Below, in pieces: positions 26,033 through 63,882 of a stretch of DNA of 64,000 nucleotides. How positions within the stretch are numbered: the stretch's first letter is position 1; each line of letters begins with the position of its first letter. This DNA comes from a virus. The notes beneath the pieces are model-generated. The model worked only from the letters and a program-made list of their open reading frames with translations. It did not search any database and was not told where the DNA came from. The stretch is from IMG/VR virus record IMGVR_UViG_3300031952_000010, positions 27,512 to 91,511 of that record; one strand, written 5' to 3'. Made by a program: the position numbers and the translations under genes.

Positions 26033-26062
26033 TTGTGGATTAGAATATAATTAGTATATTTG
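26033..26062 (+). promoter_or_regulatory. Bacteroidota-type promoter, leaderless context
   Basis: TTG (26033-26035), 19-nt spacer, TATATTTG (26055-26062); ATG at 26067, 4 nt on. Confidence 0.8.
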
Positions 26063-28866: not shown

Positions 28867-28922
28867 TTTAATGTTGATTAAAGGTTTATGCCAGTCTATA
28901 AGTATCGGAGAAATAGGTAAAC

Positions 28923-28993: not shown

Positions 28994-29040
28994 CAAGGGG
29001 TTCGGGGGAAACCCAATAGTGGGTGATGAGCCCACATCCT
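28994..29040 (+). other. two-hairpin spacer between tRNAs
   Basis: GGGTT-7nt-AACCC and GTGGG-TGATGAG-CCCAC occur back to back. GC-rich and well paired compared with other spacers; function unknown. Confidence 0.4.
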
Positions 29041-29046
29041 CCAAAT

Positions 29047-29115
29047 ACCGAATGGTCTGGTGACCGAAAATGGCTCATATCCGTTTTTAGAGTGGTTCGA
29101 AACCATTATTCGGTA
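29047..29115 (+). tRNA. tRNA with CAU anticodon, short D-arm
   Basis: Perfect acceptor ACCGAAT/ATTCGGT, anticodon loop CTCATAT (CAT), 5-nt variable loop, T-arm AGTGG-TTCGAAA-CCATT. The D-arm is reduced to GGTC-TGGT-GACC and the usual bases 8-9 seem missing, giving 69 nt. Met or, after lysidine modification, Ile(AUA) are both possible. Confidence 0.65.
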
Positions 29116-29123
29116 CTTTAAAC

Positions 29124-29196
29124 AGTTCCTTAGCTCAGTTGGGAGAGCGCTTGTTTTACATGCAAGATGTCGTAGGTTCGAATCCTACAGGAACTA
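29124..29196 (+). tRNA. tRNA-Val(UAC)
   Basis: Perfect acceptor AGTTCCT/AGGAACT, anticodon loop TTTACAT (TAC), T-arm GTAGG-TTCGAAT-CCTAC. Confidence 0.95.
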
Positions 29197-29206
29197 CAAA
29201 AAATGT

Positions 29207-29237
29207 TTGGAGAATTAAATAATTTGCCGTACATTTG
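29207..29237 (+). promoter_or_regulatory. Bacteroidota-type promoter of the second part of cluster 1
   Basis: TTG (29207-29209), 20-nt spacer, TACATTTG (29230-29237), followed by a 12-bp hairpin and a boxA-like element. Confidence 0.7.
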
Positions 29238-29250
29238 TAATATAGAAGTA

Positions 29251-29310
29251 AGGGGGGTAGGTAGTTAGTGGGTTGGTGACCTACTCCCCTGACGAAAGAG
29301 TTCTTTGAAT
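29251..29310 (+). promoter_or_regulatory. hairpin plus boxA-like leader
   Basis: A 12-bp stem (29251-29262 with 29279-29290; AGGGG...CCCCT at the base) is followed by GTTCTTTGAA (29300-29309). The same order (promoter, hairpin, GTTCTTTGA) occurs at 33204-33273 and 45482-45547. Confidence 0.5.
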
Positions 29311-29558
29311 AAAATGTTGGTGGATGGTAAGAAACGGTAAACTCGTAAAGTGCATTAACCTGTTGATATGAAATGGTGAAACGAGAGTCCATATCAGCTA
29401 CTCATCACAATAAAAATATTGATAATGGTTTTCCCCATTCAACGAAGGTCGACTCTTCAGAATGGAATCGGAATTCATCACCCTTTGCTGAGGCCTCATT
29501 AAAACTCAGGAAGCAATTAAGATTGGAGCGAGACGGGTACTCCATCATTATTATACTT
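29311..29558 (+). ncRNA. structured non-coding leader before tRNA-Phe
   Basis: About 250 nt with no convincing ORF. Stems include TGATATG / CATATCA (29363 region) and CTGAG-12nt-CTCAG (29489 region). Positions 29524-29540 are complementary (15 of 17, one mismatch possibly a G.U) to the 3' arm of the downstream tRNA-Phe. Could be a processed leader or a separate small RNA. Confidence 0.4.
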
Positions 29559-29631
29559 GGAACGGTAGCTCAGTTGGTAGAGCACTTGATTGAAGCTCAA
29601 GGTGTCGGCGGTTCGAACCCGTCTCGTTCCA
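29559..29631 (+). tRNA. tRNA-Phe(GAA)
   Basis: Acceptor GGAACGG/TCGTTCC, anticodon loop TTGAAGC (GAA), T-arm GGCGG-TTCGAAC-CCGTC. Confidence 0.93.
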
Positions 29632-29705
29632 CGGAGTCCTGAAATAACAGGATGCCCCCACTCCCATATGGCAGCCAGTCCATTAAGCTGGTGAAGGGGG
29701 TAAAT

Positions 29706-29810
29706 AGTCAAGTGGACGTAATGCGGGATGGTCCCAAGTCCCCAACTCTAACGAGGTAAGGTAGTCTAATCCGTCTTGAACGGTATTCGGTTCGAGTCCG
29801 ACCTTGATTA
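29706..29810 (+). other. tRNA-like element, anticodon not assignable
   Basis: A 7-bp acceptor-like stem (AGTCAAG / CTTGATT) and a T-arm (TCGG-TTCGAGT-CCGA) sit in exact tRNA geometry, with a D-stem-like GGAC/GTCC. The 105-nt length and lack of a normal 5-7-5 anticodon arm set it apart. Perhaps a degenerate tRNA, a tRNA with an insertion, or a decoy. Confidence 0.4.
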
Positions 29811-29815
29811 CAAAT

Positions 29816-29894
29816 TGCGATAATGGTGTAGGGTCGTTCTCATGAGACGATTTGGTAGATATACCCCTGTGAGGTTCGAGTCCTCAAATCGCAA
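29816..29894 (+). other. tRNA-like element with CAU loop, no normal D-arm
   Basis: Acceptor TGCGATA/AATCGCA (6 of 7 pairs) and T-arm TGAGG-TTCGAGT-CCTCA are tRNA-like. TCGTT-CTCATGA-GACGA could be an anticodon arm with CAT. The D region is only 11 nt; alternatively GGTGTA/TATACC is a D-stem with the hairpin inside its loop and no anticodon arm. Identity unclear. Confidence 0.45.
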
Positions 29895-29904
29895 CAAATT
29901 ATAT

Positions 29905-29978
29905 GGTGACTATAGCTCAGTTGGCAGAGCAAAGGTTTGTGGTACCTTGTGCCATGGGTTCGATTCCCATTAGTCACC
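29905..29978 (+). tRNA. tRNA-His(GUG)
   Basis: G-1 (29905) pairs with C73; acceptor GTGACTA/TAGTCAC, anticodon loop TTGTGGT (GTG), T-arm ATGGG-TTCGATT-CCCAT. The encoded G-1:C73 pair is the His identity mark. Confidence 0.95.
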
Positions 29979-29982
29979 CAAA

Positions 29983-30075
29983 TAGGTTGGGGTCCCTTGT
30001 AGTAACGGATTGAACTATAGTAAGTAAACTACAAGTATCTAGTAAGAAGTCACAGATGGGTTCGTGACGACCTAA
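29983..30075 (+). other. structured RNA element of about 92 nt
   Basis: Outer stem TAGGTTG / CGACCTA (7 bp), inner stem CTTGTAG / CTACAAG (7 bp) and GTCAC / GTGAC (5 bp). It fills the gap between tRNA-His and tRNA-Ser. No tRNA T-loop. Could be a small RNA or processing signal. Confidence 0.45.
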
Positions 30076-30078
30076 ATT

Positions 30079-30163
30079 GGAGGAATGGCAGAGTGGTCTA
30101 TCGCACTTGTCTTGAAAACAAGCGTACCGAAAGGTACCGTAGGTTCGAATCCTACTTCCTCCG
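30079..30163 (+). tRNA. tRNA-Ser(UGA)
   Basis: Acceptor GGAGGAA/TTCCTCC, anticodon loop CTTGAAA (TGA), class II variable arm (GTACC-GAAA-GGTAC), T-arm GTAGG-TTCGAAT-CCTAC; discriminator G. Confidence 0.95.
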
Positions 30164-30186
30164 CAAAACAATTAGAAAAAAAACAT

Positions 30187-30390
30187 ATGACAGACAAGTT
30201 AAAAGAGTTGTTAGAGACATCTCAAATTGGGGAACCTGAAATCGTTGATTTAATTCATTCGTATTATAAATTAGTGACCGCTGAATTATTCACACAAGAA
30301 GAATTTGATACCGTATTAGAAAGATTAGGTATTACACAAAACGGGAACGTTTTTATTTTCAACGAGAACATAACTTATACTTTTAACTAA
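30187..30390 (+). CDS. hypothetical small protein between tRNAs
   Basis: 67-aa acidic protein ([44 protein letters not shown]...). ATG 30187 follows an A-rich stretch; the longer frame would run through tRNA-Ser and is rejected. No domain recognised. Probably on the tRNA transcript. Confidence 0.65.
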
Positions 30391-30393
30391 AAT

Positions 30394-30465
30394 AGTTCCT
30401 TGGTGTAATGGATAGCACTAAACACTACGGATGTTTCAGTGAGGGTTCGAGTCCTTCAGGGACTA
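30394..30465 (+). tRNA. tRNA-Arg(ACG)
   Basis: Acceptor AGTTCCT/AGGGACT, anticodon loop CTACGGA (ACG), T-arm GAGGG-TTCGAGT-CCTTC. A34 would be read as inosine by host TadA, covering CGU/CGC/CGA. Confidence 0.93.
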
Positions 30466-30470
30466 CTATT

Positions 30471-30555
30471 GGAAGATTGGCAGAGTGGTAATGCGGCGGT
30501 TTGCTAAACCGTAGACCTCGAAAGGGGTCCACAGGTTCGAATCCTGTATCTTCCG
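30471..30555 (+). tRNA. tRNA-Ser(GCU)
   Basis: Acceptor GGAAGAT/ATCTTCC, anticodon loop TTGCTAA (GCT), class II variable arm (GACC-TCGAAAG-GGTC), T-arm ACAGG-TTCGAAT-CCTGT; discriminator G. Confidence 0.95.
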
Positions 30556-30600
30556 CTTATTTATAATTTTATACTATTTATTATCGAATAATATGATATC

Positions 30601-31995
30601 ATGAGTTACAAAAAATTTTTAATAGCGGAATCCGAGAAAAAGAACATTAGAGAAATGTACGGTTTACTAACCGAACAGTATTTCAAACCACCAAACGGTG
30701 GTGAAGGTCAAGTGGTAAATAAATATCCTGCGGGTTACTACTCCTTAAGTGGAACTGATAAGGCGGGTAACGTATATGACAATACAATCAATTTACAAAA
30801 AATTATTGACAATGCCAAAGAGTTTTTAACAACCAATAAAGGTTTTATTCCAAGAGTTGTAATAAACGCGGGAGAATCAATTATCCCTAACTACGACACT
30901 GAAGGGGGTACTGGTGTTAAAAACTCAGGATGGTTATCTGAAAAAAGAAAAAATAAGATTTCTGAATATGTCAAAAATCAATTAAAAGATTTAGTTAGTA
31001 AAAAATTAATATCAAAAGAACCTGAGGTTATTCTATATTTTGATGAAGCTAAAACATTAACGGTACCGTCAGGTGGTTGGGAGGGTTATCGAACATGGAA
31101 AAGAAGTTCTGAAGCTGAAAAGGTTAATAACCCTAATAATGCCGAGTACACCAAATTAAAAACAGGATACGATAATGACCAATTCACCAAAATAAATTTT
31201 AAAATTGTTCCTGATTTAGGCCCAAACCAATGTTCATTTAATGTCAAAATTGGTGTGCATTACGATGATTTAGATATTGGTCATAGATGTAATAAGGCGA
31301 GATTCCAAATATTGGCTAATGGTGTTCCGTTAACAACTGGTGCGGGCTCAACCTGTGGAAATGGTTTATCGTATGCGGACATGAATAACGGTGGTGGTAG
31401 TTTAGATTGTAAATCAGGCGACATTGGTGGTAAAAGAATGAATTACTTCCAACTAAATAGTAAGTCTATTGTGGACAAAATAATGGCGGCGTCTCCCGAC
31501 AAAAACTCAATAAAAATATCCATGAAATGTACATCAACAGGATTTGATGATGCTTCAGGTAGATGTCACCAAGATGTACCACATATTACGATTCATAACA
31601 CTGATGGTAAACAAACGGTTAACACCTACCCTAAAGTTAACGATAAAGATTTAATTACAATTGACAAGTGCGGTAATTTAATTACAGGTGGTGGTGGTGT
31701 CGCAACAAAAAGTAAAGATGCTGGTGGTACTGCAACAACTACAGTTACTACAACAAAACCTACAGGTCAAAAATTAAATTTTGCGTCACCAGCAACAGGA
31801 ACGTTAACTTCTGACCAAGCGATTCTTAATAAAATTAGTGATGGCTCAATTAAGAAAAACGCGGATAATACTTATTCAGTATTAAAAACATTTAATTATA
31901 ATGGTGTGTCTTATAGAATTAATGATACAATTGTTAAAATATTACCTAAAGGTAGTGTAGTAACTACGACAACGACAACTATTAAACCAAAATAA
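30601..31995 (+). CDS. putative virion protein with N-terminal motif
   Basis: 464-aa protein. The start MSYKKFLIAESEKKNIREMYGLLTEQ is a clear example of the shared terminal motif, ending LLTEQ, a possible gp21-type cut site. The middle domain (about 200-350) is beta-rich with several Cys (GPNQCSFNVKIGVHYDDLDIGHRCNKARF; GSTCGNGLSYADM). The C-terminus is Thr-rich and may be surface-exposed. TATTTAT lies 19 nt before the ATG. No enzyme domain seen. Confidence 0.65.
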   Translation: MSYKKFLIAESEKKNIREMYGLLTEQYFKPPNGGEGQVVNKYPAGYYSLSGTDKAGNVYDNTINLQKIIDNAKEFLTTNKGFIPRVVINAGESIIPNYDTEGGTGVKNSGWLSEKRKNKISEYVKNQLKDLVSKKLISKEPEVILYFDEAKTLTVPSGGWEGYRTWKRSSEAEKVNNPNNAEYTKLKTGYDNDQFTKINFKIVPDLGPNQCSFNVKIGVHYDDLDIGHRCNKARFQILANGVPLTTGAGSTCGNGLSYADMNNGGGSLDCKSGDIGGKRMNYFQLNSKSIVDKIMAASPDKNSIKISMKCTSTGFDDASGRCHQDVPHITIHNTDGKQTVNTYPKVNDKDLITIDKCGNLITGGGGVATKSKDAGGTATTTVTTTKPTGQKLNFASPATGTLTSDQAILNKISDGSIKKNADNTYSVLKTFNYNGVSYRINDTIVKILPKGSVVTTTTTTIKPK

Positions 31996-31996
31996 A

Positions 31997-32019
31997 AATG
32001 GGGGTCAGTGACCCCCAAT
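31997..32019. terminator. bidirectional terminator
   Basis: GGGGGTCA-G-TGACCCCC between convergent genes, with the better T tract on the minus strand. Confidence 0.7.
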
Positions 32020-32020
32020 T

Positions 32021-32416
32021 CTATTCGATATTACCGTAGTAGTGGTAAGAATTTTTACCATCATCAACAATAACTGTCATTGATGTGTTATCAACACATT
32101 GTGATGTGAAATAAGTCACAACACAGGTTTTGTTAGATTTCAATTCCACAGAGTAAAAAGAATTTACCCCAGGATTTGATTCTTTTGTACCTGAGAATTT
32201 GTATACCATCTCAGTACCTTCACTTTTAATTACTAAAGAATCTTTACCAATTAAAACGGTTGGTGAACTTAACAATACTGAATCAACCCATGTTGATGTA
32301 CTATCAGTGATTGCGTAACCAATCTCTAAAGATTTAACTTTTACTTTATAGATGTCTTGTGATAAACAAACTAATGTTGTTAAAGACAATAACGATGTTA
32401 GGATTAATTTTTTCAT
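32021..32416 (-). CDS. secreted protein with signal peptide
   Basis: 131-aa protein. The N-terminus MKKLILTSLLSLTTLVCLSQD is a standard signal peptide with likely cleavage after CLS. The mature part is Ser/Thr/Val-rich beta structure with two Cys (KTCVVTY, SQCVDN) that could form a disulfide. It carries its own leaderless-type TATATTTG promoter, so it may be expressed early. A role in changing the cell envelope, for example blocking superinfection, is possible but unproven. Confidence 0.75.
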   Translation of the reverse strand: MKKLILTSLLSLTTLVCLSQDIYKVKVKSLEIGYAITDSTSTWVDSVLLSSPTVLIGKDSLVIKSEGTEMVYKFSGTKESNPGVNSFYSVELKSNKTCVVTYFTSQCVDNTSMTVIVDDGKNSYHYYGNIE

Positions 32417-32420
32417 ACAA

Positions 32421-32451
32421 CAAATATAACGCTCTTATTTGACTAAAACAA
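32421..32451 (-). promoter_or_regulatory. Bacteroidota-type promoter, leaderless context
   Basis: Minus strand: TTG (32451-32449), 20-nt spacer, TATATTTG (32428-32421), ATG 4 nt on. Confidence 0.75.
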
Positions 32452-32494
32452 ATTTTTTTATTATTTTCTTTCTAAAAATATTTTTTAAAAAGTT

Positions 32495-32524
32495 TTGGCA
32501 GTCTCAAAATTTATTGTATCTTTG
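32495..32524 (+). promoter_or_regulatory. Bacteroidota-type promoter
   Basis: TTG (32495-32497), 19-nt spacer, TATCTTTG (32517-32524). Divergent from the previous promoter. Confidence 0.8.
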
Positions 32525-32546
32525 TATTCACAAAAACGATATAACT

Positions 32547-32996
32547 ATGACAACTACCAACACAATCATCGACGTAACAACAGGAACATTAGCAGGTGAC
32601 GTATTCTACGGAAACTTTAAAACTCGTGTTAAAAATAAAGTAATTAATGTTATGGTTTCAAACCACTTGAAAGACATTAACAAAGAATATGAATTCCGTA
32701 TCGCAGGGAAATGTCAAGCAGGATTCATCAGTATCCACGATACTAAAGGAACCGCTGGTGAAGTTATCCGTGGATACCAAAAAAACTCTTTGGTTAATAT
32801 CCAAGCAAAAAATGAGTTCGGTCATTGGATGAATGTTTACACAACTAAAGGTGGTAAATGGTACTCAATCGACAAAGGTTTCTTGGAAACTATTACAGTT
32901 GGTACTATGAGAGAATCTTTCCCTGATATGTGCGATATGCAAATTTGGGAAAGAATGGGAGCTAAGACTTGGGCTGATAAGGCTTTCACAAAATAA
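32547..32996 (+). CDS. hypothetical protein
   Basis: 149-aa protein (MTTTNTIIDVTTGTLAGDVFYGNFKTRVKNKVINVMVSNHLKDINKEYEFRIAGKCQAGFIS...). ATG 32547 lies 22 nt past the -7 box, after an A-rich leader. Predicted mixed alpha/beta with no membrane segment or known motif. Codon choice is rich in NNC codons compared with late genes, which fits high early expression. Confidence 0.7.
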   Translation: MTTTNTIIDVTTGTLAGDVFYGNFKTRVKNKVINVMVSNHLKDINKEYEFRIAGKCQAGFISIHDTKGTAGEVIRGYQKNSLVNIQAKNEFGHWMNVYTTKGGKWYSIDKGFLETITVGTMRESFPDMCDMQIWERMGAKTWADKAFTK

Positions 32997-33066
32997 GAAG
33001 TTTTTACCAATATTTGACTTTTTATGAAAGTCGTATATATTTAATAGAAAATACATAATACTGCAA

Positions 33067-33138
33067 ATGAAAAATTTAAATATCATACTATTAGGCGGGA
33101 CTGAGGCGGATACGTTAACTCGGACGGCGATGGTATGA
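33067..33138 (+). other. 23-codon ORF inside a stem-loop, possible leader
   Basis: MKNLNIILLGGTEADTLTRTAMV is encoded inside a hairpin whose base is ATCATAC / GTATGAT. The loop is GC-rich (GGCGGGACTGAGGCGG), unlike its surroundings. A terminator follows at 33164. It could be a leader peptide, a riboswitch or a small RNA. Confidence 0.35.
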
Positions 33139-33163
33139 TGTTTTGTCAACAATAACAATCAGA

Positions 33164-33192
33164 ACCCATCTCCAAAAAAGATGGGTTTTTTT
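33164..33192 (+). terminator. Rho-independent terminator
   Basis: ACCCATCT-CCAAAAA-AGATGGGT then six Ts. Confidence 0.9.
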
Positions 33193-33203
33193 ATGTCTAA
33201 AAG

Positions 33204-33233
33204 TTGGTAATTAAATAAATTGTTGTATCTTTG
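33204..33233 (+). promoter_or_regulatory. Bacteroidota-type promoter of tRNA cluster 2
   Basis: TTG (33204-33206), 19-nt spacer, TATCTTTG (33226-33233). Followed by a GGGG-ATGAAA-CCCC hairpin (33246-33259) and the boxA-like GTTCTTTGACAT (33262-33273). Confidence 0.85.
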
Positions 33234-33295
33234 TGAAACAATAAAGGGGATGAAACCCCGAGTTCTTTGACATGTTGGTTTGAAAAAAAAATTAA

Positions 33296-33367
33296 GGTCT
33301 ATTCGTTCATCGGCTAGGATGCTACCCTGTCACGGTAGTGAGGAGGGTTCGATTCCCTCATGGACCG
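33296..33367 (+). tRNA. tRNA-Asp(GUC)
   Basis: Acceptor GGTCTAT/ATGGACC, anticodon loop CTGTCAC (GTC), T-arm GAGGG-TTCGATT-CCCTC; discriminator G, the Asp identity base. Confidence 0.95.
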
Positions 33368-33378
33368 CAAACAATAAG

Positions 33379-33454
33379 GGGGGTGCATGTACCAAGGCAT
33401 TGGCGATGTCGATTTGCAATCAACGTGAGGTGGGTTCGATTCCCATCATCTCCA
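33379..33454 (+). tRNA. tRNA-Ala(UGC), divergent D-arm
   Basis: Acceptor GGGGGTG/CATCTCC contains G3.U70, the Ala identity pair. Anticodon loop TTTGCAA (TGC) on a stem with one C.A mismatch; T-arm GTGGG-TTCGATT-CCCAT; discriminator A. The D-arm lacks the usual pattern. Confidence 0.85.
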
Positions 33455-33467
33455 CACAAAAATATAT

Positions 33468-33539
33468 CGTGGGATAGAGCAGTGGTAGCTCGCAAGGCTC
33501 ATAACCTTGAGGTCGGGGGTTCGAATCCCTCTCCCGCAA
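33468..33539 (+). tRNA. tRNA-Met(CAU), initiator-like C1.A72
   Basis: Acceptor CGTGGGA/TCCCGCA has a C1.A72 mismatch, the mark of bacterial initiator tRNA. Anticodon loop CTCATAA (CAT), stem CAAGG/CCTTG, so not the full GGG/CCC of E. coli initiators. T-arm has TTCGAAT. Confidence 0.88.
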
Positions 33540-33548
33540 CTAATACAT

Positions 33549-33622
33549 CGTGGGTTAGACTGGAGGTGGTTCCAGCTTGGTCTCATAAGCCAAAGACGGG
33601 GGTTCGAGTCCCTCACCCGCAA
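33549..33622 (+). tRNA. tRNA-Met(CAU), second initiator-like copy
   Basis: Acceptor CGTGGGT/ACCCGCA, again with C1.A72. Anticodon loop CTCATAA (CAT), T-arm GGGGG-TTCGAGT-CCCTC. Differs from the previous copy in the D-arm and anticodon stem, so not a recent duplicate. Confidence 0.85.
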
Positions 33623-33700
33623 CAAATGTGTCTCAATTCCCTGAAGAAATTCAAAGTTGAGGTCTCGGTAGACAGAACGCGTCTGATTCTACCCAAATAC

Positions 33701-33773
33701 GCGAATATCGTATAGTGGTTTATTACTCCATCCTTCCAAGTTGGAGACGACAGTTCGATTCTGTCTATTCGCT
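33701..33773 (+). tRNA. tRNA-Gly(UCC)
   Basis: Acceptor GCGAATA/TATTCGC, anticodon loop CTTCCAA (TCC), T-arm GACAG-TTCGATT-CTGTC; discriminator T. The 78-nt spacer before it contains a GGTAGA / TCTACC hairpin (33667-33693). Confidence 0.93.
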
Positions 33774-33780
33774 CAAAAAT

Positions 33781-33861
33781 GCTTAAGTGGTGGAATGGTA
33801 TACACGTATGTCTTAGGAACATATGTCTTATGACGTGAGGGTTCGAGTCCCTCCTTAAGTA
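33781..33861 (+). tRNA. tRNA-Leu(UAG)
   Basis: Acceptor GCTTAAG/CTTAAGT (G1.U72), anticodon loop CTTAGGA (TAG), class II variable arm, T-arm GAGGG-TTCGAGT-CCCTC; discriminator A. Confidence 0.93.
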
Positions 33862-34428
33862 CAAAACCAAGGTAATGTCAGTAGGATGAGGCCGCAATCG
33901 GATTCCTTTGAACAACGCGTGAGGGGCGGCTTTCACGATGTGGCTGATAACCCGAGGTTTTAAGACCCCACGAGTAACGGAGATATCCGACCGTTATGGA
34001 GTGTGAACCTGACTTGAAGGCTTCAAGGCTATGGGGGAGGCAACACAAACAAACACGGATTCCCCATTATGGATTAAGGGGGTAAGGGGCTTTAATTAGT
34101 CGTAATACAATCCACAAGTTGTAAGAACACTGAACAATCTTACAATACACACTCTGACTTCCGAGTGAGACTCACCACGTAACTTTGGGGGTAGGGTGAA
34201 GATGTTCTGAGGATAACACTGAACGCTGAACAGTAAAAACCATGACGCATTTGATTGGTAGAATAGGTTAAGACGGAGTGTGAAAGTAGAAACCCCCGAT
34301 GGATGGTTACTAAGCTCTTTAACTCAAAAGGGATAGTCGGGAGGGATATATAAGCTTAAGGGAAACTATAAGTAAAAACTAGGTCAGTTCCGATTTAACC
34401 CCTATCGGTACGAGTGTCTGACCTTAAT
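33862..34428 (+). ncRNA. long structured non-coding RNA inside tRNA cluster 2
   Basis: 567 nt without a credible ORF, clearly more GC-rich than the protein genes. Stems visible by eye: GGCCGC with GCGGC (33891-33930 region), TAACGG/CCGTTA with an inner CGGA-GATA-TCCG, GGGGGA/TCCCC (34034-34070), TTGTAAGA/TCTTACAA with an 11-nt loop (34117-34144), CACTC/GAGTG, and GGTCAG/CTGACC enclosing CCGAT/ATCGG near the 3' end. It runs straight into tRNA-Thr and is presumably cut from the same precursor. Giant ornate RNAs such as GOLLD and ROOL sit next to tRNAs in phages; I cannot test membership here. Confidence 0.6.
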
Positions 34429-34501
34429 GCCTCCTTAGCTCAGTTGGCAGAGCACTTGTTTTGTAAACAAGATGTCGTTGGTTCGAATCCGACAGGAGGC
34501 T
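34429..34501 (+). tRNA. tRNA-Thr(UGU)
   Basis: Perfect acceptor GCCTCCT/AGGAGGC, anticodon loop TTTGTAA (TGT), T-arm TTGG-TTCGAAT-CCGA; discriminator T. Confidence 0.95.
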
Positions 34502-34527
34502 CAATGAGTAAGAGATACTCATCAAAT

Positions 34528-34613
34528 GCTCGGGTGGTGTAATTGGTAGCCACGCAAGACTTAAAATCTTGTGGACTGTAAGGTCCGTGCGGGTTCGATT
34601 CCCGCCCCGAGTA
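34528..34613 (+). tRNA. tRNA-Leu(UAA)
   Basis: Acceptor GCTCGGG/CCCGAGT, anticodon loop CTTAAAA (TAA), class II variable arm (GGACT-GTAA-GGTCC), T-arm GCGGG-TTCGATT-CCCGC. Confidence 0.95.
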
Positions 34614-34615
34614 CT

Positions 34616-34813
34616 AAAACAAATCTTACATAAGACGGATTAGCACCGTTGAAAGGAACCTTGGCTTCACCGCGGAGTAATTACCGTAACAGAAGTTCTA
34701 AATGCCCCAAGGTACTATGTAATGGACCCTGCTCTGATGTGCACGTCAACAGGTGATGGGGAACAAACCATCGGTCAAATCTAAACCTACGGTGAGCGTA
34801 GAAGATTTGTTTT
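34616..34813 (+). ncRNA. 198-nt RNA closed by a perfect 12-bp stem
   Basis: AAAACAAATCTT (34616-34627) pairs perfectly with AAGATTTGTTTT (34802-34813). Inside are CCTTGG/CCAAGG, CGG-8nt-CCG and a GATG-TGCA-CGTC-like hairpin. No ORF. It lies between tRNA-Leu and tRNA-Glu with 5-nt spacing to the latter, suggesting a discrete processed RNA. Confidence 0.55.
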
Positions 34814-34818
34814 TATTT

Positions 34819-34893
34819 GGTCCCATCGTCTAACGGTTAGGACATCAGGTTTTCATCCTGAAAATCGGGGTTCGATTCCCCGTGGGACTACCA
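34819..34893 (+). tRNA. tRNA-Glu(UUC)
   Basis: Acceptor GGTCCCA/TGGGACT (G1.U72), anticodon loop TTTTCAT (TTC), T-arm CGGGG-TTCGATT-CCCCG. Discriminator A is followed by CCA in the DNA, the only tRNA here with an encoded CCA. Confidence 0.95.
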
Positions 34894-34914
34894 AATATTC
34901 TTCATTTATATAAA

Positions 34915-34988
34915 GGACTTGTAGCTCAGTTGGTTAGAGCACCGCACTCATAATGCGTAGGTCCATGGTTCGAGTCCATGCTGGTCCA
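34915..34988 (+). tRNA. tRNA with CAU anticodon (elongator Met or Ile2)
   Basis: Acceptor GGACTTG/CTGGTCC with one T.T mismatch, anticodon loop CTCATAA (CAT) on CGCA/TGCG, T-arm CATGG-TTCGAGT-CCATG. The G1-C72 pair argues for an elongator. Last tRNA of cluster 2. Confidence 0.9.
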
Positions 34989-35006
34989 CTTTTTTCAAAT
35001 TATACA

Positions 35007-35036
35007 TTGCCAGTCCAAATTTTTTTTGTATATTTG
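35007..35036 (+). promoter_or_regulatory. Bacteroidota-type promoter, leaderless context
   Basis: TTG (35007-35009), 19-nt spacer, TATATTTG (35029-35036); ATG at 35041. Confidence 0.8.
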
Positions 35037-43630: not shown

Positions 43631-43637
43631 TATTTAT
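43631..43637 (+). promoter_or_regulatory. TATTTAT late-promoter-like element
   Basis: TATTTAT, 4 nt before the ATG at 43642. Confidence 0.5.
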
Positions 43638-49687: not shown

Positions 49688-49712
49688 AAAAAGGGGGTTA
49701 TTCAACCCCTTT
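49688..49712 (-). terminator. terminator of the clpC-like gene
   Basis: Minus strand: AGGGGTTGAATAACCCCCT then seven Ts. It overlaps the last codons of the gene. Confidence 0.8.
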
Positions 49713-51740
49713 TCTTTTTCTTATAACTTTCTTTCCATCTTTGAATTTGACATCCCCATTTTCACTGATTAAAGTGTATTCGATATTTTCTTGGATGTTA
49801 CTCTTAAGAACTTCTTCCGAGATAAAATCTTCTATTTTATCCTGAATAGCCCTTTTTAGTGGACGAGCCCCGTACATCTCATCAAACCCAACCTCAGAAA
49901 TCATTTCAATAATAGAGTCATCAAATTTAATATTATATTTAAGACCTGTTAATCTTTCAGATAAAACATTCAACTCAAGTTTAACAATTTTTTTAACATC
50001 TTCTTTCACTAATGAATTGAAAATGATAACTTCATCAATACGATTTAAAAATTCAGGAGCGAAAAACTTCTTAAGTTCTTTCTTCAAAACTTCTCTTTTT
50101 TGTTCTTCCTCAACATAAGAACTTGAGTTAGTTTTAAAACCTACACCAGCTCCAAAATCTTGTAGTTTTTTAACTCCAACATTCGATGTCATGATGATAA
50201 TACAGTTTTTGAAATTAATCTTTCTTCCCATACCATCAGTAAGGTGACCGTCATCCAACACTTGTAATAATGTTGAGAATATGTCTTTGTTTGCCTTTTC
50301 AATCTCGTCAAACAAAATTACCGAGTAAGGTTTGTTCTTAACTTGTTCAGTTAATTGACCACCTTCATCATAACCTACATATCCTGGAGGTGCCCCAATT
50401 AATCTTGAAATACTATGTTTTTCTTGGTATTCAGACATGTCCACACGAATCATATTTTCTTCACTACCAAACATTTGTTTTGCCAATTGTTTTGCCAAGT
50501 AGGTTTTACCCACACCAGTTGAGCCAAGGAAAATAAATGAACCTATTGGTTTGTTAGGGTCTTTAATACCTAATCTGTTTCGTCTGATTGACTTAGCAAT
50601 TTTCATAACCGCTTCAGATTGTCCAATTACTTTGTCAGATAAACTACTGTCTAATTGACTTAATAACATTGTTTCATCGGCGTTTAATTTACTAATAGGA
50701 ATTTTGGTCATGTTTGAAACAACCTCATAAACCAACTCAATAGAAACTTCTTTCTTCTTAACTTGAAGTTCATCTTCAAATTTTTTCTTCTCAATATCTA
50801 ATTTATTAAGAATACGTTTTTCTTTATCACGTAAGTTTGCCGCCTCCTCGTAATTTTGTTTTTTAACTACCTCAAGTTTTTCAATTTTAACATCCGCAGC
50901 CTCTTGCTTTAATTTCTCAATAATTTCAGGCATTTTAATCTCAACCTGACATCTTGCACCAACCTCATCAATAATGTCAAATGCCTTATCAGGGAACTCT
51001 CTATCAGTGATATATCTTGCCGCCAAATCAACACATACAGAAAGTACTTCATCAGTATAGGACACCTTATGAAATGTTTCGTACTTGTCTTTAACATTTT
51101 TAAGAATTTCTAATGTTTCTTCTTTTGTTGAAGCGTCAACAATAACCTTTTGGAATCGTCTTTCTAAAGCTCCGTCTTTCTCAAAGTTCTTACGATACTC
51201 GTCAAGAGTTGTAGCACCAACACATTGAATTTCTCCACGAGCAAGTGCTGGTTTAAAGATATTTGATGCGTCTAAAGAACCTGATGAATTACCAGCTCCA
51301 ACAATAGTGTGAATCTCATCAATAAACACAATGATATTTGGGGCGTTTTGTAATTCTTCAATAATTACCTTCATACGTTCCTCAAACTGACCACGATATT
51401 TTGTACCTGCAACGATTGAAGTCATATCTAAAGACACTATTCTTTTGTCCATTAAATTTCTCGGACATTCACCGTTAAAAATTTTAATAGCTAATCCTTC
51501 TACGATTGCGGTTTTACCACAACCAGGTTCACCAATAATAATAGGGTTGTTTTTCTTTCTACGAGAAAGAATTTGAGCTATTCTCGTAATTTCTCTCTCT
51601 CTACCAACTACAGGGTCTAACTTACCTTGTTCGGCTAATTTGATTAAATCTCTACTGAAGTTATCCAACACAGGTGTTGAAGAGTCAGATGTTGATTTAG
51701 GTGGGTTATTCTTTCCCCCATTGTCCATGGATTCTATCAT
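49698..51740 (-). CDS. clpC: ClpC-like Hsp100 AAA+ unfoldase lacking the N-domain
   Basis: 680-aa protein with two AAA+ modules. First: GEPGCGKT (70-77), VFIDEIHTIVGAG, GATTLDEYRK. Then a short UVR-like middle segment (KLEVVKKQNYEEAANLRDKEKRIL), characteristic of ClpC. Second: GSTGVGKT, DEIEKAN, MTSNVG and the sensor-2 GARPLKRAIQ. After MTSNVG there is a VGF tripeptide (GAGVGFKTN), the ClpP-docking loop of ClpC/ClpA, so partnership with host ClpP is plausible. The N-terminal Clp_N repeat domain is missing and replaced by a Ser/Thr/Pro-rich 25-residue stretch, so adaptor and substrate choice should differ from host ClpC. Confidence 0.93.
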   Translation of the reverse strand: MIESMDNGGKNNPPKSTSDSSTPVLDNFSRDLIKLAEQGKLDPVVGREREITRIAQILSRRKKNNPIIIGEPGCGKTAIVEGLAIKIFNGECPRNLMDKRIVSLDMTSIVAGTKYRGQFEERMKVIIEELQNAPNIIVFIDEIHTIVGAGNSSGSLDASNIFKPALARGEIQCVGATTLDEYRKNFEKDGALERRFQKVIVDASTKEETLEILKNVKDKYETFHKVSYTDEVLSVCVDLAARYITDREFPDKAFDIIDEVGARCQVEIKMPEIIEKLKQEAADVKIEKLEVVKKQNYEEAANLRDKEKRILNKLDIEKKKFEDELQVKKKEVSIELVYEVVSNMTKIPISKLNADETMLLSQLDSSLSDKVIGQSEAVMKIAKSIRRNRLGIKDPNKPIGSFIFLGSTGVGKTYLAKQLAKQMFGSEENMIRVDMSEYQEKHSISRLIGAPPGYVGYDEGGQLTEQVKNKPYSVILFDEIEKANKDIFSTLLQVLDDGHLTDGMGRKINFKNCIIIMTSNVGVKKLQDFGAGVGFKTNSSSYVEEEQKREVLKKELKKFFAPEFLNRIDEVIIFNSLVKEDVKKIVKLELNVLSERLTGLKYNIKFDDSIIEMISEVGFDEMYGARPLKRAIQDKIEDFISEEVLKSNIQENIEYTLISENGDVKFKDGKKVIRKRKGVE

Positions 51741-57812: not shown

Positions 57813-59582
57813 ATGTCAAATTTAACAAGAGAACAGGTACTAATAGAGTATGTAAAATGTCATAAAGACGTAGAATATGCGTTAAGAACTTATCTACAAA
57901 CATACGATAATACAGTATCAAAATACGTACCATTAGAATTATTTCCAGACCAAGTATCATTACTTGAAGATTACGAAAATTATAACGAAAATATCGCCTT
58001 AAAATATCGACAAGCGGGAGTAACTACAGTTACATCTGCTTGGGCTTCGATGAAACTTTCTTTTGCTAAGAAAAACAAACCCGAAAAAGTTCTTATAATC
58101 GCTAACAAACTTGATACGTCATTAGAGATGGCAAACAAGATTAGAAACTTTGTCAGTCAATGGCCGAGTTGGGTTGGTATTGATTTTGCGGTGGAAAAAA
58201 ACTCACAAAAACATTATAAATTAAATAACGGTAGTGAGGTTAAAGCCGTTGCAACATCTAAAGATGCCTTACGTGGATTTACTCCAACAATACTTATATT
58301 TGATGAGGCGGCGTTTATTGAGGCCGACAGTGATTTTTGGGCGGCGTGTATGGCATCTTTATCTACAGGTGGTAAAGTAATCGTGGTTTCAACACCAAAT
58401 GGTTATGACCGAATTTATTATGAGATATATGACCAAGCCTTAAGAAACATGAATGACTTCAGAATTTCTGAAATGTATTGGTATCGTGACCCTCGTTACA
58501 CAAAAGATTTATATCTAATTAAAACCGATGATATGATTCACTATCTTTTAAATAAAGAAGAGTACAGTGAGAAAGATATCCTTAGTTGGTCTCATATACC
58601 CGCAAACGAAAGAGATTATAAAGAACTAAGAGAATTAATGAACCAAGGTTATAAACCTTGTTCTTCTTGGTTTGAAGCGATGGTTAAGAAATTAAAATAC
58701 GATAAACGTAAAGTATCTCAGGAGTTAGAATGTAACTTCTTAGGTTCAGGTGATAACGTATTTGACTCTAAAATGTTACAAACAATAAGAGAAAATTCTA
58801 TTATAGAACCCAAGAATAAACTTATGGGAAACGCTTTATGGATTTGGAAAGAACCTGTCGTTGGCCATAAATACATTATGGGGGTCGATGTTTCTCGTGG
58901 GGATAGTGAAGACTTTAGCTCGTTTCAAATTATTGATTTTGATGAAAGAGAACAGGTTGCTGAATATGTTGGTAAATTACCGCCAGATACTATGGCTGAA
59001 ATTTGTTATAAATGGGCTAACATGTATTCGTGTTTTATTGTGATTGATATTACAGGTGGAATGGGAGTTTCCACGTCAAGAAAATTACAGGAAATGGGTT
59101 ACAAAGATTTATATGTTGATGGTGTGGATACCGCTAATAAGTGGAAATACGACGCTAAGTCACATGAAAAAATACCAGGAATTAATTTTAATAATAAAAG
59201 AGTTCAAATTATTGCTTCATTTGAAGAGGGTATGAGACATGGATTTAAAATTTATAGCTCAAGACTTTTCAATGAAATGAATACGTTCATTTACATTAAT
59301 GGTCGTCCTGACCATCAGAAAGGACATCATGATGACTTAATTATGTCAGTGGCTATGGCAACTTATGTTGCTGAATCGTCATTTAGTAATTTAACTAAGG
59401 TTGTGGAACATACTAAGGCAATGATTGAGTCTTGGGCAGTTAGTAACAATGACCAAGCGGCTAAAAATTTAGAATTTAATCCTGTTATACCACACATGTC
59501 AGAAAGAATTGGGCAGTATAATAATCAGAACATGTCTAAAGAGGATTATCAAAAGTACGGTTGGTTATTTGGTATTAGATAA
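57813..59582 (+). CDS. terL: terminase large subunit (T4 gp17-like)
   Basis: 589-aa protein. ATPase: an atypical Walker A RQAGVTT (66-72) after the Q-like LFPDQVSLLEDY, and Walker B LIFDEA with D164-E165. Nuclease: GVDVSRGDSEDFSSFQIIDF (first metal-binding Asp) and VIDITGGMG with a later HDDLIMSVAMA. This is the two-domain packaging motor of T4-type phages, which cuts concatemeric DNA and pumps it through the portal. The small terminase is not identifiable nearby. Followed by portal and protease, in gp17-gp20-gp21 order. Confidence 0.95.
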   Translation: MSNLTREQVLIEYVKCHKDVEYALRTYLQTYDNTVSKYVPLELFPDQVSLLEDYENYNENIALKYRQAGVTTVTSAWASMKLSFAKKNKPEKVLIIANKLDTSLEMANKIRNFVSQWPSWVGIDFAVEKNSQKHYKLNNGSEVKAVATSKDALRGFTPTILIFDEAAFIEADSDFWAACMASLSTGGKVIVVSTPNGYDRIYYEIYDQALRNMNDFRISEMYWYRDPRYTKDLYLIKTDDMIHYLLNKEEYSEKDILSWSHIPANERDYKELRELMNQGYKPCSSWFEAMVKKLKYDKRKVSQELECNFLGSGDNVFDSKMLQTIRENSIIEPKNKLMGNALWIWKEPVVGHKYIMGVDVSRGDSEDFSSFQIIDFDEREQVAEYVGKLPPDTMAEICYKWANMYSCFIVIDITGGMGVSTSRKLQEMGYKDLYVDGVDTANKWKYDAKSHEKIPGINFNNKRVQIIASFEEGMRHGFKIYSSRLFNEMNTFIYINGRPDHQKGHHDDLIMSVAMATYVAESSFSNLTKVVEHTKAMIESWAVSNNDQAAKNLEFNPVIPHMSERIGQYNNQNMSKEDYQKYGWLFGIR

Positions 59583-59796: not shown

Positions 59797-61641
59797 ATGG
59801 AAAACAATCAAAATAATCAATTTACAGTTTGGCAGAGGTTATCTCAAGCCTTTGGTCCTAACGCCCTGTTAAATCAAGATTATCCAACATATAAGTTAGA
59901 CAAGACTGAGTTATTAAAAACAACATCAAAACAAGAATACGACAAAGAAAAATTACAAGCTCAACAAACGTATTACTTAGCCAATCAATGGACTAAAATT
60001 GAGAGTAACTTATACACTCAAGCGGTTTATTATGAACCAACAAGATTAGCATCATTCTATGATTATGAATCGATGGAATATACTCCTGAAATTTCTGCAG
60101 CTTTAGATATCTACGGTGAAGAATCAACAACTGTTGACCAAAATGGTTACATGTTACAAATCTATTCAGAATCTAAACGTATTAAATCAATCTTAATTGA
60201 CTTATTTAATAATGTTTTAGATATCAATACTAATTTACCAATGTGGACAAGAAATACCGCAAAATACGGTGATAATTTTGTTTATTTAAAATTAGATGCT
60301 GAGAAAGGTATAGTTGGTTGTATGCAATTACCAAATATTGAGATTGAACGACTTGAAAGAGGTATGGCTGCAAAATCAGCAAACGTTGAGGAACCCGCAG
60401 AAAACAAAGGTTTAAGGTTTAAGTGGAAAGCCAAAGATATGGAATTTAATTCATGGGAAGTTGCTCACTTTAGATTATTAGGTGATGATAGAAAATTACC
60501 TTACGGTACTTCTATGTTAGAAAAAGCAAGACGTATTTGGAAACAATTATTATTATCAGAAGATGCGATGTTAATCTATCGTACCTCAAGAGCCCCTGAA
60601 AGACGTGTGTTTAAAGTCTTTGTAGGTAATATGGATGATAAAGACGTTGAGTCATACGTACAACGTGTTGCAAACAAATTTAAACGTAGTCAGGTTGTTG
60701 ATAGTCAATCGGGTAATGTCGATATGAGATTTAACCAAATGGCCGTTGACCAAGATTATTTTATACCTGTACGTGACCCAGCTCAAGCATCCCCAATTGA
60801 GACTCTACCAGGAGCTCAGAACTTAGCAGAGATTGCCGACATCGAATACATACAAAAGAAATTATTAACCGCTCTTAGAGTTCCTAAAGCGTTTTTAGGG
60901 TTTGAGGAAGTTGTTGGTGACGGTAAGAATTTATCATTACAAGACATCCGTTTTGCAAGAACAATTAATAGAATTCAAAAATCTATGATTGCTGAAATGA
61001 ATAAAATCTCTATTATTCATTTATTCTTATTAGGATTTGAAGATGAGTTATCAAACTTTACATTAGGTTTAACTAACCCATCAACACAAGCCGATTTATT
61101 AAAAATTGATGTTTGGAAAGAAAAAGTTTTATTATACAAAGATGCCGTAACACCAATCGAAGGTATTGCTCCAGTGTCTGTGACTTGGGCTAAGAAACAC
61201 GTATTAGGATTCTCGGATGAAGAGATTAAATTAGATTTACAACAACAACGTGTTGAAAAAGCCGTTGGTGCTGAATTAACTAACACCGCAACTATTATCA
61301 GTCATACAGGTGTATTTGATAATATTGATAAATTATATGGTGTTAAATCAGGAGCCACTCAAACTGTGGGGGCAACTCCACCACCTCCAGGAGGTGAATC
61401 AAGTGGAGGAGGATTAGGCGCACCTGAAGATATGGGTGGAGGAGCCCCAATACCACCGCCACCAGGGCCTGAGCCAGTCGGTGACGCGGGGTTAACACCT
61501 GAATCATATAAACGTGATAACTTAACAATTTTATTAGAAAGTGATAACTTAACAGATTCGGATTCATTTATTGATTTGTCTAAAGCAAGAAATTCTTTAG
61601 GTGAAATGGAAAAAGAATTAAACAAACTTCTAAAAGACTGA
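59797..61641 (+). CDS. portal protein (T4 gp20-like)
   Basis: 614-aa protein with portal landmarks: YYEPTRLASFYDYESMEYTPEISAALDIYGEEST, PMWTRNTAKYGDNFVYLKLD, AHFRLLGDDRKLPYGTSMLEKARRIWKQLLLSEDAMLIYRTSRAPERRVFKV, and PGAQNLAEIADIEYIQKKLLTALRVPKAFLGFEE. The dodecameric portal is the DNA gate at one capsid vertex. A Pro/Gly-rich C-terminal segment (PPPPGGESSGGGLGAP) precedes a short helical tail. Confidence 0.94.
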   Translation: MENNQNNQFTVWQRLSQAFGPNALLNQDYPTYKLDKTELLKTTSKQEYDKEKLQAQQTYYLANQWTKIESNLYTQAVYYEPTRLASFYDYESMEYTPEISAALDIYGEESTTVDQNGYMLQIYSESKRIKSILIDLFNNVLDINTNLPMWTRNTAKYGDNFVYLKLDAEKGIVGCMQLPNIEIERLERGMAAKSANVEEPAENKGLRFKWKAKDMEFNSWEVAHFRLLGDDRKLPYGTSMLEKARRIWKQLLLSEDAMLIYRTSRAPERRVFKVFVGNMDDKDVESYVQRVANKFKRSQVVDSQSGNVDMRFNQMAVDQDYFIPVRDPAQASPIETLPGAQNLAEIADIEYIQKKLLTALRVPKAFLGFEEVVGDGKNLSLQDIRFARTINRIQKSMIAEMNKISIIHLFLLGFEDELSNFTLGLTNPSTQADLLKIDVWKEKVLLYKDAVTPIEGIAPVSVTWAKKHVLGFSDEEIKLDLQQQRVEKAVGAELTNTATIISHTGVFDNIDKLYGVKSGATQTVGATPPPPGGESSGGGLGAPEDMGGGAPIPPPPGPEPVGDAGLTPESYKRDNLTILLESDNLTDSDSFIDLSKARNSLGEMEKELNKLLKD

Positions 61642-61661
61642 TATTTATAAATAAAAAAGAG

Positions 61662-62381
61662 ATGACAAATTTTGGAATAATTAAATCGAAGATAGAAGAT
61701 GTGTTATTAGAATCATATAAAAACAACACATTTAAACAAGAATTCAAAAACTTTAAAAAGTTAGTTTTAGAAAATAAAAAAATATGCAAACTTTTTTATT
61801 TATACGATGATTTATCTTCTAATAAAGGATTATCGGAATCAATTGTTAACGAATATGTAAATGAATGTATAACCATTTATGAAAATACCGTTAATAAAAT
61901 ACAAGAGTCGGATATTATACCATTAAAGTCTTGGGTTAAAAACTCTAAGGTTGATAATCAATATAATAATATTGATAATTTATTCTCGAGAGATGTCTTA
62001 ACGATTGAATCAAGAATAACTAGTAAAAAAAATATTTCAGAATCTCTTAAGAAATTACCTACCAAGAAAGTAGATACAGTTCAAATATCATTAACTTCTA
62101 TGGTTAATGTTGCTAATAAAACAATTTCAAATTTTATTGATTCATTAACTGAGTCAGACAAAAAAGAATTAACAAGACTTTTATCTGAGGATGACGTTAC
62201 TTTAAATCAAAAATTTGATAATGTTAAAGAAAGTGTTGTAAATAAATTAACTGAAATGAAAAACAATAATGAGGATAAGTCAACTCAAACAAGAATTGAT
62301 GAAACTCTTGATAAAGTAATTTCAGAAAAATACGACAAGTTAACTTATTTTAAACTTAAAAGTTTAAATGAGAATCTTTAA
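61662..62381 (+). CDS. hypothetical late protein between portal and protease
   Basis: 239-aa helical, charged protein (MTNFGIIKSKIEDVLLESYKNNTFKQEFKNFKKLVLENKKICKLFYLYDDL...). Several LxE/IxE sites, possible targets of the protease. In T4 the same place holds small core proteins, so a prohead-core role is plausible. Convergent with rpsU, overlapping by 4 nt. Confidence 0.65.
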   Translation: MTNFGIIKSKIEDVLLESYKNNTFKQEFKNFKKLVLENKKICKLFYLYDDLSSNKGLSESIVNEYVNECITIYENTVNKIQESDIIPLKSWVKNSKVDNQYNNIDNLFSRDVLTIESRITSKKNISESLKKLPTKKVDTVQISLTSMVNVANKTISNFIDSLTESDKKELTRLLSEDDVTLNQKFDNVKESVVNKLTEMKNNNEDKSTQTRIDETLDKVISEKYDKLTYFKLKSLNENL

Positions 62382-62572
62382 TCATTATTTGATTTATATT
62401 TTTTCTGAACGTATTTTGCTTTTGAAATTTCTTTCCTCCTTTTAACTGATTTTTTTTGGAATTCTTTTCTTTCATTTAATTCCTTACTTTGCCTTGTCTT
62501 TATGACTTTGCTTTTGTAAATTTTTAACGCTTTCTCAAGTGTTACATTCTTTTCTACCTTTACGATTAACAT
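62378..62572 (-). CDS. rpsU: ribosomal protein bS21 homologue
   Basis: 64-aa basic protein: MLIVKVEKNVTLEKALKIYKSKVIKTRQSKELNERKEFQKKSVKRRKEISKAKYVQKKYKSNND. The pattern (V.V..N...ekALk.fK.k..k....kElr.R..f.kpS..rr) is that of bS21, about the size of Bacteroidota versions. bS21 sits on the 30S platform beside the 3' end of 16S rRNA. In Bacteroidota it helps hide the anti-Shine-Dalgarno, so a phage copy could change which mRNAs start translation. It lies on the minus strand among plus-strand head genes. Confidence 0.88.
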   Translation of the reverse strand: MLIVKVEKNVTLEKALKIYKSKVIKTRQSKELNERKEFQKKSVKRRKEISKAKYVQKKYKSNND

Positions 62573-62660
62573 ATTTTTGTGAGTTTATATTTATTTTGAC
62601 TATTGCTGTAAATATACCTATTTTTATTAAAACAATAAACTTAAAAAATTATGAAATTTA

Positions 62661-63131
62661 ATGAAAAAGGGGAAAACCTCACACATTCACGGATTCAACA
62701 CTGCCAAGGTAGTATACGGAACAGTTGATTCGATGAATTTTAAGTCACTCTATCTTAACATCCAAACATGGGTAGAACCAACTACAGAGTGCGAAAATTG
62801 GACAAGGACAGTTCTCAATATGAGCAGAGCCATAAAACATTCGGTCTACGAAACCTTAGATAAAGAGTTATTTGATGATAAATTTATAGTGGATTTAGAT
62901 TTAAGGTCCAGCGGGTTAAATCAAGGTAAAAAATCTTTTATGAATTTAGAAATTAATTTCTTTTTGAATGATGATGGGCATGACTTTAAATCCAAAGAAA
63001 TTAAAGATTCACTTAAAGATATTACTACAAGAATTTTTTACGAAAACTTTGTAGGTAACGATTACTTTAAATTTTATCTAACTAAAAAAATCAAAACAAA
63101 CAACGAGACGTTACAATTAGAGAATGTTTAA
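62661..63131 (+). CDS. hypothetical conserved late protein
   Basis: 156-aa protein (MKKGKTSHIHGFNTAKVVYGTVDSMNFKSLYLNIQTWVEPTTECENWTRTVLNMSRAIKHSVYETL...DKFIVDLDLRSSGLNQGKKSFMNLEINFFL...). Alpha/beta, basic start. Placed between portal and prohead protease. Its end overlaps the reading frame extension of the protease gene. Function unknown. Confidence 0.72.
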   Translation: MKKGKTSHIHGFNTAKVVYGTVDSMNFKSLYLNIQTWVEPTTECENWTRTVLNMSRAIKHSVYETLDKELFDDKFIVDLDLRSSGLNQGKKSFMNLEINFFLNDDGHDFKSKEIKDSLKDITTRIFYENFVGNDYFKFYLTKKIKTNNETLQLENV

Positions 63132-63153
63132 TATTTATAATAAAACATTTGAG

Positions 63154-63882
63154 ATGAATTTAAGAATTTTACAACCAACTGAAATAGGTAAAGGTATATT
63201 AATAGAATACGATGCGGGTTACGTATCACCAACAGATACACATAATGCTAAGATTATTAAAGAATCTAAAGGTAATATGTTAGACCATTCTAAACCATTT
63301 GAATTTTATGCGGTATTACAGAAATATAATACCCCAAACAGAAATGGTAGAATATACCCTGAACGTATTTTAAAAAGAGAAGCTGAAAACTATAAAAAAA
63401 TGATAGAAAAGGGTACCTCTCTTTCAGAGTTAAATCACCCTGAATCATCTTTAATAGATTTAGATAGAGTTTCTCATATGATTACTGAAGTATGGTGGGA
63501 AGGACCTGTATTAATGGGTAAGATACAATTACTTACTTCACCAGGATTCCACGAAAGAGGTATTGTATCAACCAAAGGAGATTTAGCAGCTAACTACCTA
63601 AGACAAGGAGTTACGTTAGGAATCTCCTCAAGAGGGGTTGGTTCCCTTAAAAAAGTTGGTGAACAGAACGAGGTCCAAGAAGATTTTGAATTAATCTGTT
63701 TTGACTTAGTATCGTCACCATCAACACCAGGAGCGTATTTATTCCAAAATCCTGAAGATAGATTTAACTTTGAGGAGAACTTGGAAGAGGAGAAAAAAAT
63801 TAAAGTCGAAAGAGAAGTTGGGGAAAGTGGAAATAAATCACTTGACTTAATGAAAAAATTGAACGATTATTTAGGATATTAA
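63154..63882 (+). CDS. prohead maturation protease (T4 gp21-like)
   Basis: 242-aa protein. FYAVLQKYNTPNRNGRIYPERIL begins the conserved region; SELNHPESS carries the catalytic His and LGISSRGVGS the catalytic Ser of the U9/herpesvirus-type serine protease fold. It should cut head proteins at LxE/IxE sites. Start set at the eleventh codon of the open frame (MNLRILQPTE), which follows TATTTAT by 16 nt; a start at 63124 would overlap the upstream gene. Confidence 0.92.
   Translation: MNLRILQPTEIGKGILIEYDAGYVSPTDTHNAKIIKESKGNMLDHSKPFEFYAVLQKYNTPNRNGRIYPERILKREAENYKKMIEKGTSLSELNHPESSLIDLDRVSHMITEVWWEGPVLMGKIQLLTSPGFHERGIVSTKGDLAANYLRQGVTLGISSRGVGSLKKVGEQNEVQEDFELICFDLVSSPSTPGAYLFQNPEDRFNFEENLEEEKKIKVEREVGESGNKSLDLMKKLNDYLGY

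Follow-up and report, generated by a model that had tools for sequence, protein, structure and literature searches.

Why a phage should carry a gene for ribosomal protein bS21, and whether its product alters the choice of translation start sites, is the question raised by one locus of IMG/VR virus record IMGVR_UViG_3300031952_000010. The stretch of DNA analyzed, referred to here as the window, comprises 64,000 nucleotides and forms the right end of this 91.5-kb record, ending just past the prohead protease gene. Chen et al. (2022; PMC9723584) described 47 bS21-phage genomes of freshwater Bacteroidetes, with reverse-strand bS21 genes and predicted Bacteroidetes hosts, and already proposed ribosome takeover by phage bS21. 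The gene and the core of the takeover idea are already known. New here are the escape of the gene from Shine-Dalgarno (SD) control, the true site of divergence from host bS21, a leader element, and a clade-specific leaderless promoter spacing; the main text of Chen et al. (PMC9723584) deals with neither SD escape nor start spacing nor the GTCAAAA leader element.

The reading frame at the center of the locus (Table 1) is confirmed as a real bS21 gene and not a chance open reading frame. In a profile search it matched Pfam Ribosomal_S21 (PF01165) at 35.7 bits, above the cutoff of 27, and its best solved relatives are the bS21 chains 9i5v_9 and 7jil_z, 7JIL being the Flavobacterium johnsoniae ribosome (PMC9723584). 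With the NCBIfam equivalog S21p it scored 21.1 bits, under the cutoff of 28.95, and we therefore regard it as a divergent member of the family, not a cellular equivalog. A single scan of IMG/VR confirmed at least 576 relatives, and 159 sampled loci yielded 37 distinct proteins and 48 distinct DNA sequences. Purifying selection is evident among the pairs with unsaturated dS from these 159 loci (median dN/dS, 0.078; no pair above 1). The identity originally predicted for this gene thus holds, on the Pfam match, the dN/dS value, and the 159 loci. In a phylogenetic tree, the phage sequences form a single clade (99/100) separate from Bacteroidia bS21; with only 64 alignment columns, the deeper branches are weakly supported. 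An AlphaFold2 model built from 16 aligned bS21 sequences, with the megaphage rows left out, is a single long helix (mean pLDDT, 83; pTM, 0.39) and, rRNA being absent, is uninformative on the fit to the ribosomal pocket. Rfam gave no match at gathering score over 61600-63200.

Table 1. Features of the window discussed in the text, with positions counted from its first nucleotide
Feature	Position	Strand	Basis
Sigma-A box of leaderless type, TATATTTG; 4-nt gap to ATG 26067	26055..26062	+	Motif position
Other boxes with the same 4-nt spacing, given by first position of the box	3420, 39484, 41850, 48793 (+); 5662, 8984, 32428 (-)	+ and -	Motif position
Additional box of probable leaderless type, TATATTTG; 4-nt gap to in-frame ATG 35041	35029..35036	+	Sequence
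Phage-type box TATTTAT, 4 nt before ATG 43642	43631..43637	+	Motif position
Terminase large subunit	57813..59582	+	Profile matches
T4-like portal protein, gp20 family	59797..61641	+	Profile matches
Convergent neighbor, function unassigned, in the position of bS21_CN of Chen et al.	61662..62381	+	ORF and locus comparison
Phage rpsU (bS21), 64 aa, Tyr54 retained	62378..62572	-	ATG start; Pfam, structures, conservation
Predicted 5' leader of bS21 mRNA, about 32 nt, A-rich	62573..62604	-	Start inferred from box position
GTCAAAA element in predicted bS21 leader	62594..62600	-	Upstream comparison
Promoter-like box TATATTTA (TATATTTG in many relatives)	62609..62616	-	Exactly 8 nt before GTCAAAA
Hypothetical gene at the opposite flank of bS21	62661..63131	+	ORF list
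Prohead core protease, Peptidase_S77	63124..63882	+	Profile matches

The bS21 gene lies on the reverse strand amid plus-strand genes for terminase, portal, unknown proteins, and prohead protease, and the 3' end of its convergent neighbor overlaps it by 4 bp. This neighbor is paired with an opposite-strand bS21 gene in 79 of 80 loci, the remaining locus being cut by a contig end. The arrangement, including the convergent neighbor, is that of clades a to e of Chen et al. (PMC9723584), whose proteins share Tyr54 and whose phages also have a low GC content and many tRNA genes. Relatives of the window phage measure 322,372 and 322,477 bp, compared with 293 to 331 kb for the genomes of Chen et al., which differ in carrying 5 to 25 tRNA genes versus 27 in the window. 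The latter are arrayed on the plus strand at 25688-34989, with small ORFs interspersed. Host-type TAnnTTTG boxes, portal relatives in a Flavobacterium phage, and a nearest cellular bS21 in the Flavobacteriaceae indirectly suggest that the window phage family probably infects Bacteroidota, and to that degree the host originally proposed is probable.

We compared the 37 phage proteins with 59 host bS21 proteins. Columns 5, 7, 8, 10, 18, 21, 23, 24, 27, 28, and 33 separate the two sets wholly or nearly so, and the N-terminal half (residues 5 to 33) is the main region of divergence. A15, L16, K17, K40, S42, R46, and A52 are identical between phage and host proteins, and Gln56 is conserved in the phage proteins. 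The original prediction placed the difference in the C-terminal residues; those past position 56 do differ from the hosts, but the strongest differences are N-terminal. At position 54, Tyr occurs in 97% of the phage proteins and 92% of the host proteins, and all 37 phage variants have an aromatic residue there (36 Tyr and 1 Phe); Chen et al. reported Tyr in 54 of 61 phage proteins and another aromatic residue in the others (PMC9723584). In F. johnsoniae, Tyr54 stacks on the 16S rRNA tail and its mutation frees the anti-SD, and either Y54A or loss of the C terminus increases the translation of strong-SD mRNAs (PMC9976891). As Tyr54 is retained, the anti-SD most likely stays hidden with the phage protein in place. 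It shares with the F. johnsoniae protein (McNutt et al. 2023, PMC9976891; PDB 7jil) the core and Tyr54, and differs from it in the N-terminal half. Chen et al. locate the N-terminal helix of bS21 above the path of the mRNA, with the C-terminal part abutting the anti-SD (PMC9723584).

A second difference from F. johnsoniae concerns the expression of the gene. There, ribosomes without bS21 translate rpsU more efficiently, by way of an extended SD whose pairing is stronger than -13 kcal/mol (PMC9976891); the phage gene has no extended SD and hence lacks that autoregulation. Pairing energies were computed with the canonical 16S tail, an approach that would overlook any host whose anti-SD departs from it. 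On this basis, the last 25 nt before the window gene pair with the anti-SD at 0.0 kcal/mol, and an extended SD (-13 kcal/mol or stronger) was found in 0 of 80 sampled phage loci and in none of the further clade variants. Among distinct upstream sequences, which are related and not independent, 0 of 43 from the phage clade reached this value compared with 15 of 62 from host rpsU genes. The phage gene should therefore escape the rpsU feedback, and its product, by filling ribosomes, should repress host rpsU. Since only 15 of the 62 sampled host genes have a strong SD, the true host may be one in which such feedback capture does not operate.

The main rpsU gene of three Flavobacteriaceae carries AGAGAGGAGGTG and is in each case among the 15 at -13 kcal/mol or stronger, and these three genomes also hold the nearest cellular relative of phage bS21 that was found, with 50% identity over 56 residues. 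This is a second, SD-less bS21 paralogue present in some Flavobacteriaceae (loci L082, L083, and L084). It resembles the phage gene in lacking an SD and differs from it in its chromosomal, non-phage context and in lacking the phage IKTRQ signature. Its neighbors, named by eye from their translations, are an RNA methyltransferase-like gene, a GNAT-like acetyltransferase gene, and a transporter gene. Five phage loci of one subclade (L077 to L081) have AGGAGG or AGGGGG upstream of bS21 (-10.7 to -9.8 kcal/mol); these purine stretches are probably not SDs, as they are sited between two promoter-like boxes, probably upstream of the transcription start. In the 735-kb megaphage LR756501 (L234), the bS21 gene at 4001-4198 has a strong SD, AAAGGAGG (-12.1 kcal/mol), and may be feedback regulated in the manner of a host gene. 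This indicates that SD escape is a trait of the window clade and not of every phage bS21 gene.

The reading we favor, with a probability of roughly 0.58, is that, during infection, the phage protein takes the place of host bS21 in the 30S subunit, SD independent and immune to the host feedback, with a possible bias in mRNA choice. Tyr54 would keep the anti-SD tail hidden, leaving the ribosome SD independent, as SD-less phage mRNAs need. With no extended SD before its gene, synthesis of the phage protein would not drop when ribosomes are replete; as it filled the sites, the host feedback would keep host rpsU off, and ribosomes would drift to the phage form. The changed, mRNA-facing N-terminal half may in addition bias initiation towards phage mRNAs. 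From our data, the basis for this reading is the family assignment, conservation, Tyr54, the absence of an SD, the gene's own promoter-like box, and the locus architecture; from the literature, it is the incorporation of a different phage bS21 into Escherichia coli ribosomes and the host feedback of F. johnsoniae. That different protein is from Pelagibacter phage HTVC008M, which likewise encodes bS21 and whose product enters E. coli 70S ribosomes; HTVC008M differs in having an alphaproteobacterial host (Mizuno et al. 2019, PMC6375957). Ribosomes containing the pelagiphage protein were about 5% active in vitro in the E. coli system (PMC6375957), and being almost inactive, they illustrate that incorporation need not mean function. 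For a takeover of translation by a phage through the swap of a ribosomal protein, the sequence evidence gives sharp predictions: host rpsU should be repressed by phage bS21 via the feedback loop of the host itself, and the anti-SD should not be freed.

A simpler account is one of dosage, in which the phage copy supplies bS21 for late synthesis, with no change in mRNA choice and no use of the feedback. The conserved core residues and Tyr54 are what this account expects, as is the expression of phage bS21 late, together with structural genes, in lake samples (PMC9723584). It sits less well with the roughly ten N-terminal positions that differ wholly or nearly so from the hosts and are stable in the phage clade, or with the separate branch (99/100) that this clade forms, and we consider it possible but on the unlikely side.

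Replacement of host bS21 would matter most if phage mRNAs have unusual starts. No SD enrichment was found before the genes of the window, and its promoter positions indicate many leaderless mRNAs; both features belonged to the original prediction. For the sigma-A box TAnnTTTG, a gap of exactly 4 nt to the ATG is seen at 8 genes of the window, and gaps of any other length between 0 and 13 nt are absent; over the whole record, this 4-nt spacing is seen in 8 genes, compared with a shuffle mean of 0.11. Such a spacing would place the transcription start site on the A of the ATG. One ORF listed from 34978 has its longer start inside a tRNA gene, which, with the box 4 nt before the in-frame ATG, suggests that 35041 is its true start. 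A phage-type box, TATTTAT, lies 4 to 6 nt before the ATG of 16, 33, and 26 genes in the window record and phages G178 and G179 (shuffle means, 0.3 to 0.9), and 13 to 18 nt before the ATG of 9, 39, and 32 genes in the same three bS21 phages; some starts predicted from TATTTAT may fall one or two nucleotides off the AUG. In a host control of 400 kb of Flavobacteriales genome, TATTTAT was absent at both distances, and 73 of 77 sigma-A boxes lay at least 10 nt from the ATG. About 5.5% of mRNAs are leaderless in Flavobacterium psychrophilum (PMC9723704). Altogether, 99 of 792 genes in the three bS21 phages have leaderless-type starts versus 11 of 604 in bS21-less T4-type relatives, counts that rest on longest-ATG gene calls and motif positions, not on mapped starts. 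As a prediction from promoter spacing far above that of shuffled sequences, leaderless mRNAs in the window clade are well supported.

The bS21-less relatives are the group of Flavobacterium phage immuto (NC_055915, Immutovirus), a cultured T4-type phage that constitutes a natural control. Immuto resembles the window phage in its T4-type head module, its portal protein (37% identity), and the TATTTAT motif, and differs in having no bS21 in its whole record and little leaderless-type spacing. None of the 10 records of immuto and its relatives that were examined contains bS21. In this group, TATTTAT precedes 162 genes at 13 to 18 nt versus 5 at 4 to 6 nt in pooled portal-region loci, and 31 versus 10 in three whole or near-whole genomes.

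These patterns raise the possibility of a specialized ribosome, whose 30S or 70S particle would be adapted to AUG-starting phage mRNAs by the altered N-terminal half of bS21. The difference between 99 of 792 and 11 of 604 genes points this way, as do two bS21-positive megaphages, LR756502 and LR745206, in which a different motif, TAATATATA, peaks 4 to 6 nt before the ATG. E. coli 61S particles without bS1, uS2, and bS21 translate leaderless mRNA (PMC4929434); there, however, leaderless translation accompanies the loss of bS21 and not a variant of it. LR756501 has a weaker signal, and leaderless-type spacing was not found in bS21 phages LR756504 and LR756508 or in the G190-192 group. Counted by lineage, the pattern occurs in 3 of 6 bS21-positive and 0 of 4 bS21-negative lineages (Fisher's P = 0.2), the negative ones being the immuto group, which is the sole T4-type relative, and pT24, phi38:1, and crAss001, each represented by 50 kb only. 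That leaderless starts go with bS21 across all phages is not established by these six and four lineages. The fit between bS21 and leaderless mRNAs that was originally proposed is thus retained as an association in one clade and not as a property common to all bS21 phages, and a functional link is suggestive only. Moreover, several of the sigma-A leaderless genes, encoding RNA ligase, phosphoesterases, and a kinase-like protein, look early. Their translation would then precede the accumulation of phage bS21, unless this protein too is made early, a timing allowed by the sigma-A-like box before the bS21 gene in many relatives. We consider a specialized ribosome unlikely. Its combination with the replacement of host bS21 would make a matched pair, in which a feedback-immune, SD-independent bS21 converts the ribosomes and the promoters produce AUG-start mRNAs that those ribosomes prefer. 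If true, the virus would have made a specialized ribosome served by a leaderless class of mRNAs of its own; we hold this to be a rather long shot. In loci L297 to L306 and L398 to L403 of two bS21 megaphages, TAATATATA stands at a fixed distance before many genes.

The bS21 gene itself has its own promoter-like box and a conserved GTCAAAA element in its leader. GTCAAA is conserved in 39 of 40 distinct bS21 upstream sequences, and a regular-expression search found TATATTT[A/G] or TATTTTTA in 27 of 43 upstreams, exactly 8 nt before GTCAAA wherever the exact box occurred; near matches occur in several other clades. Only 2 of the 127 genes of the window record have TAGTCAAA in front of them. In F. 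johnsoniae, the -7 box spans -12 to -5 (PMC6847099), and by this rule the bS21 mRNA would start near 62604, with GUCAAAA near the 5' end of a 32-nt leader. So nearly invariant an element, near-specific to the bS21 gene, might suggest a role outside the ribosome, such as an RNA-binding regulator of its own GUCAAAA leader, and the convergent neighbor that always accompanies bS21 might suggest a partner, either in that protein or in the virion. The protein has nevertheless kept the bS21 core residues, as a ribosome-bound protein needs, and a nonribosomal role appears improbable to us.

Least probable is a release of the 16S tail by phage bS21 with a turn of the ribosome to SD-led initiation, the rewiring through the C terminus that was originally implied. 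The residues after 56 differ from those of the hosts, but both Tyr54 and Gln56 have been conserved, and no SD enrichment is seen before phage genes. We therefore reject a C-terminal origin of the rewiring and regard rewiring through anti-SD release as unlikely.

Elsewhere in the window, a ClpA/ClpB-like AAA+ ATPase of the PHROGs ATP-dependent protease family is encoded at 49698-51740 on the minus strand. In immuto (L291 to L293), a recurrent leader-like cassette resembling TTAGGTATCAATAATTA, with AAAGTT or AAGGTT directly before the ATG, precedes many genes.
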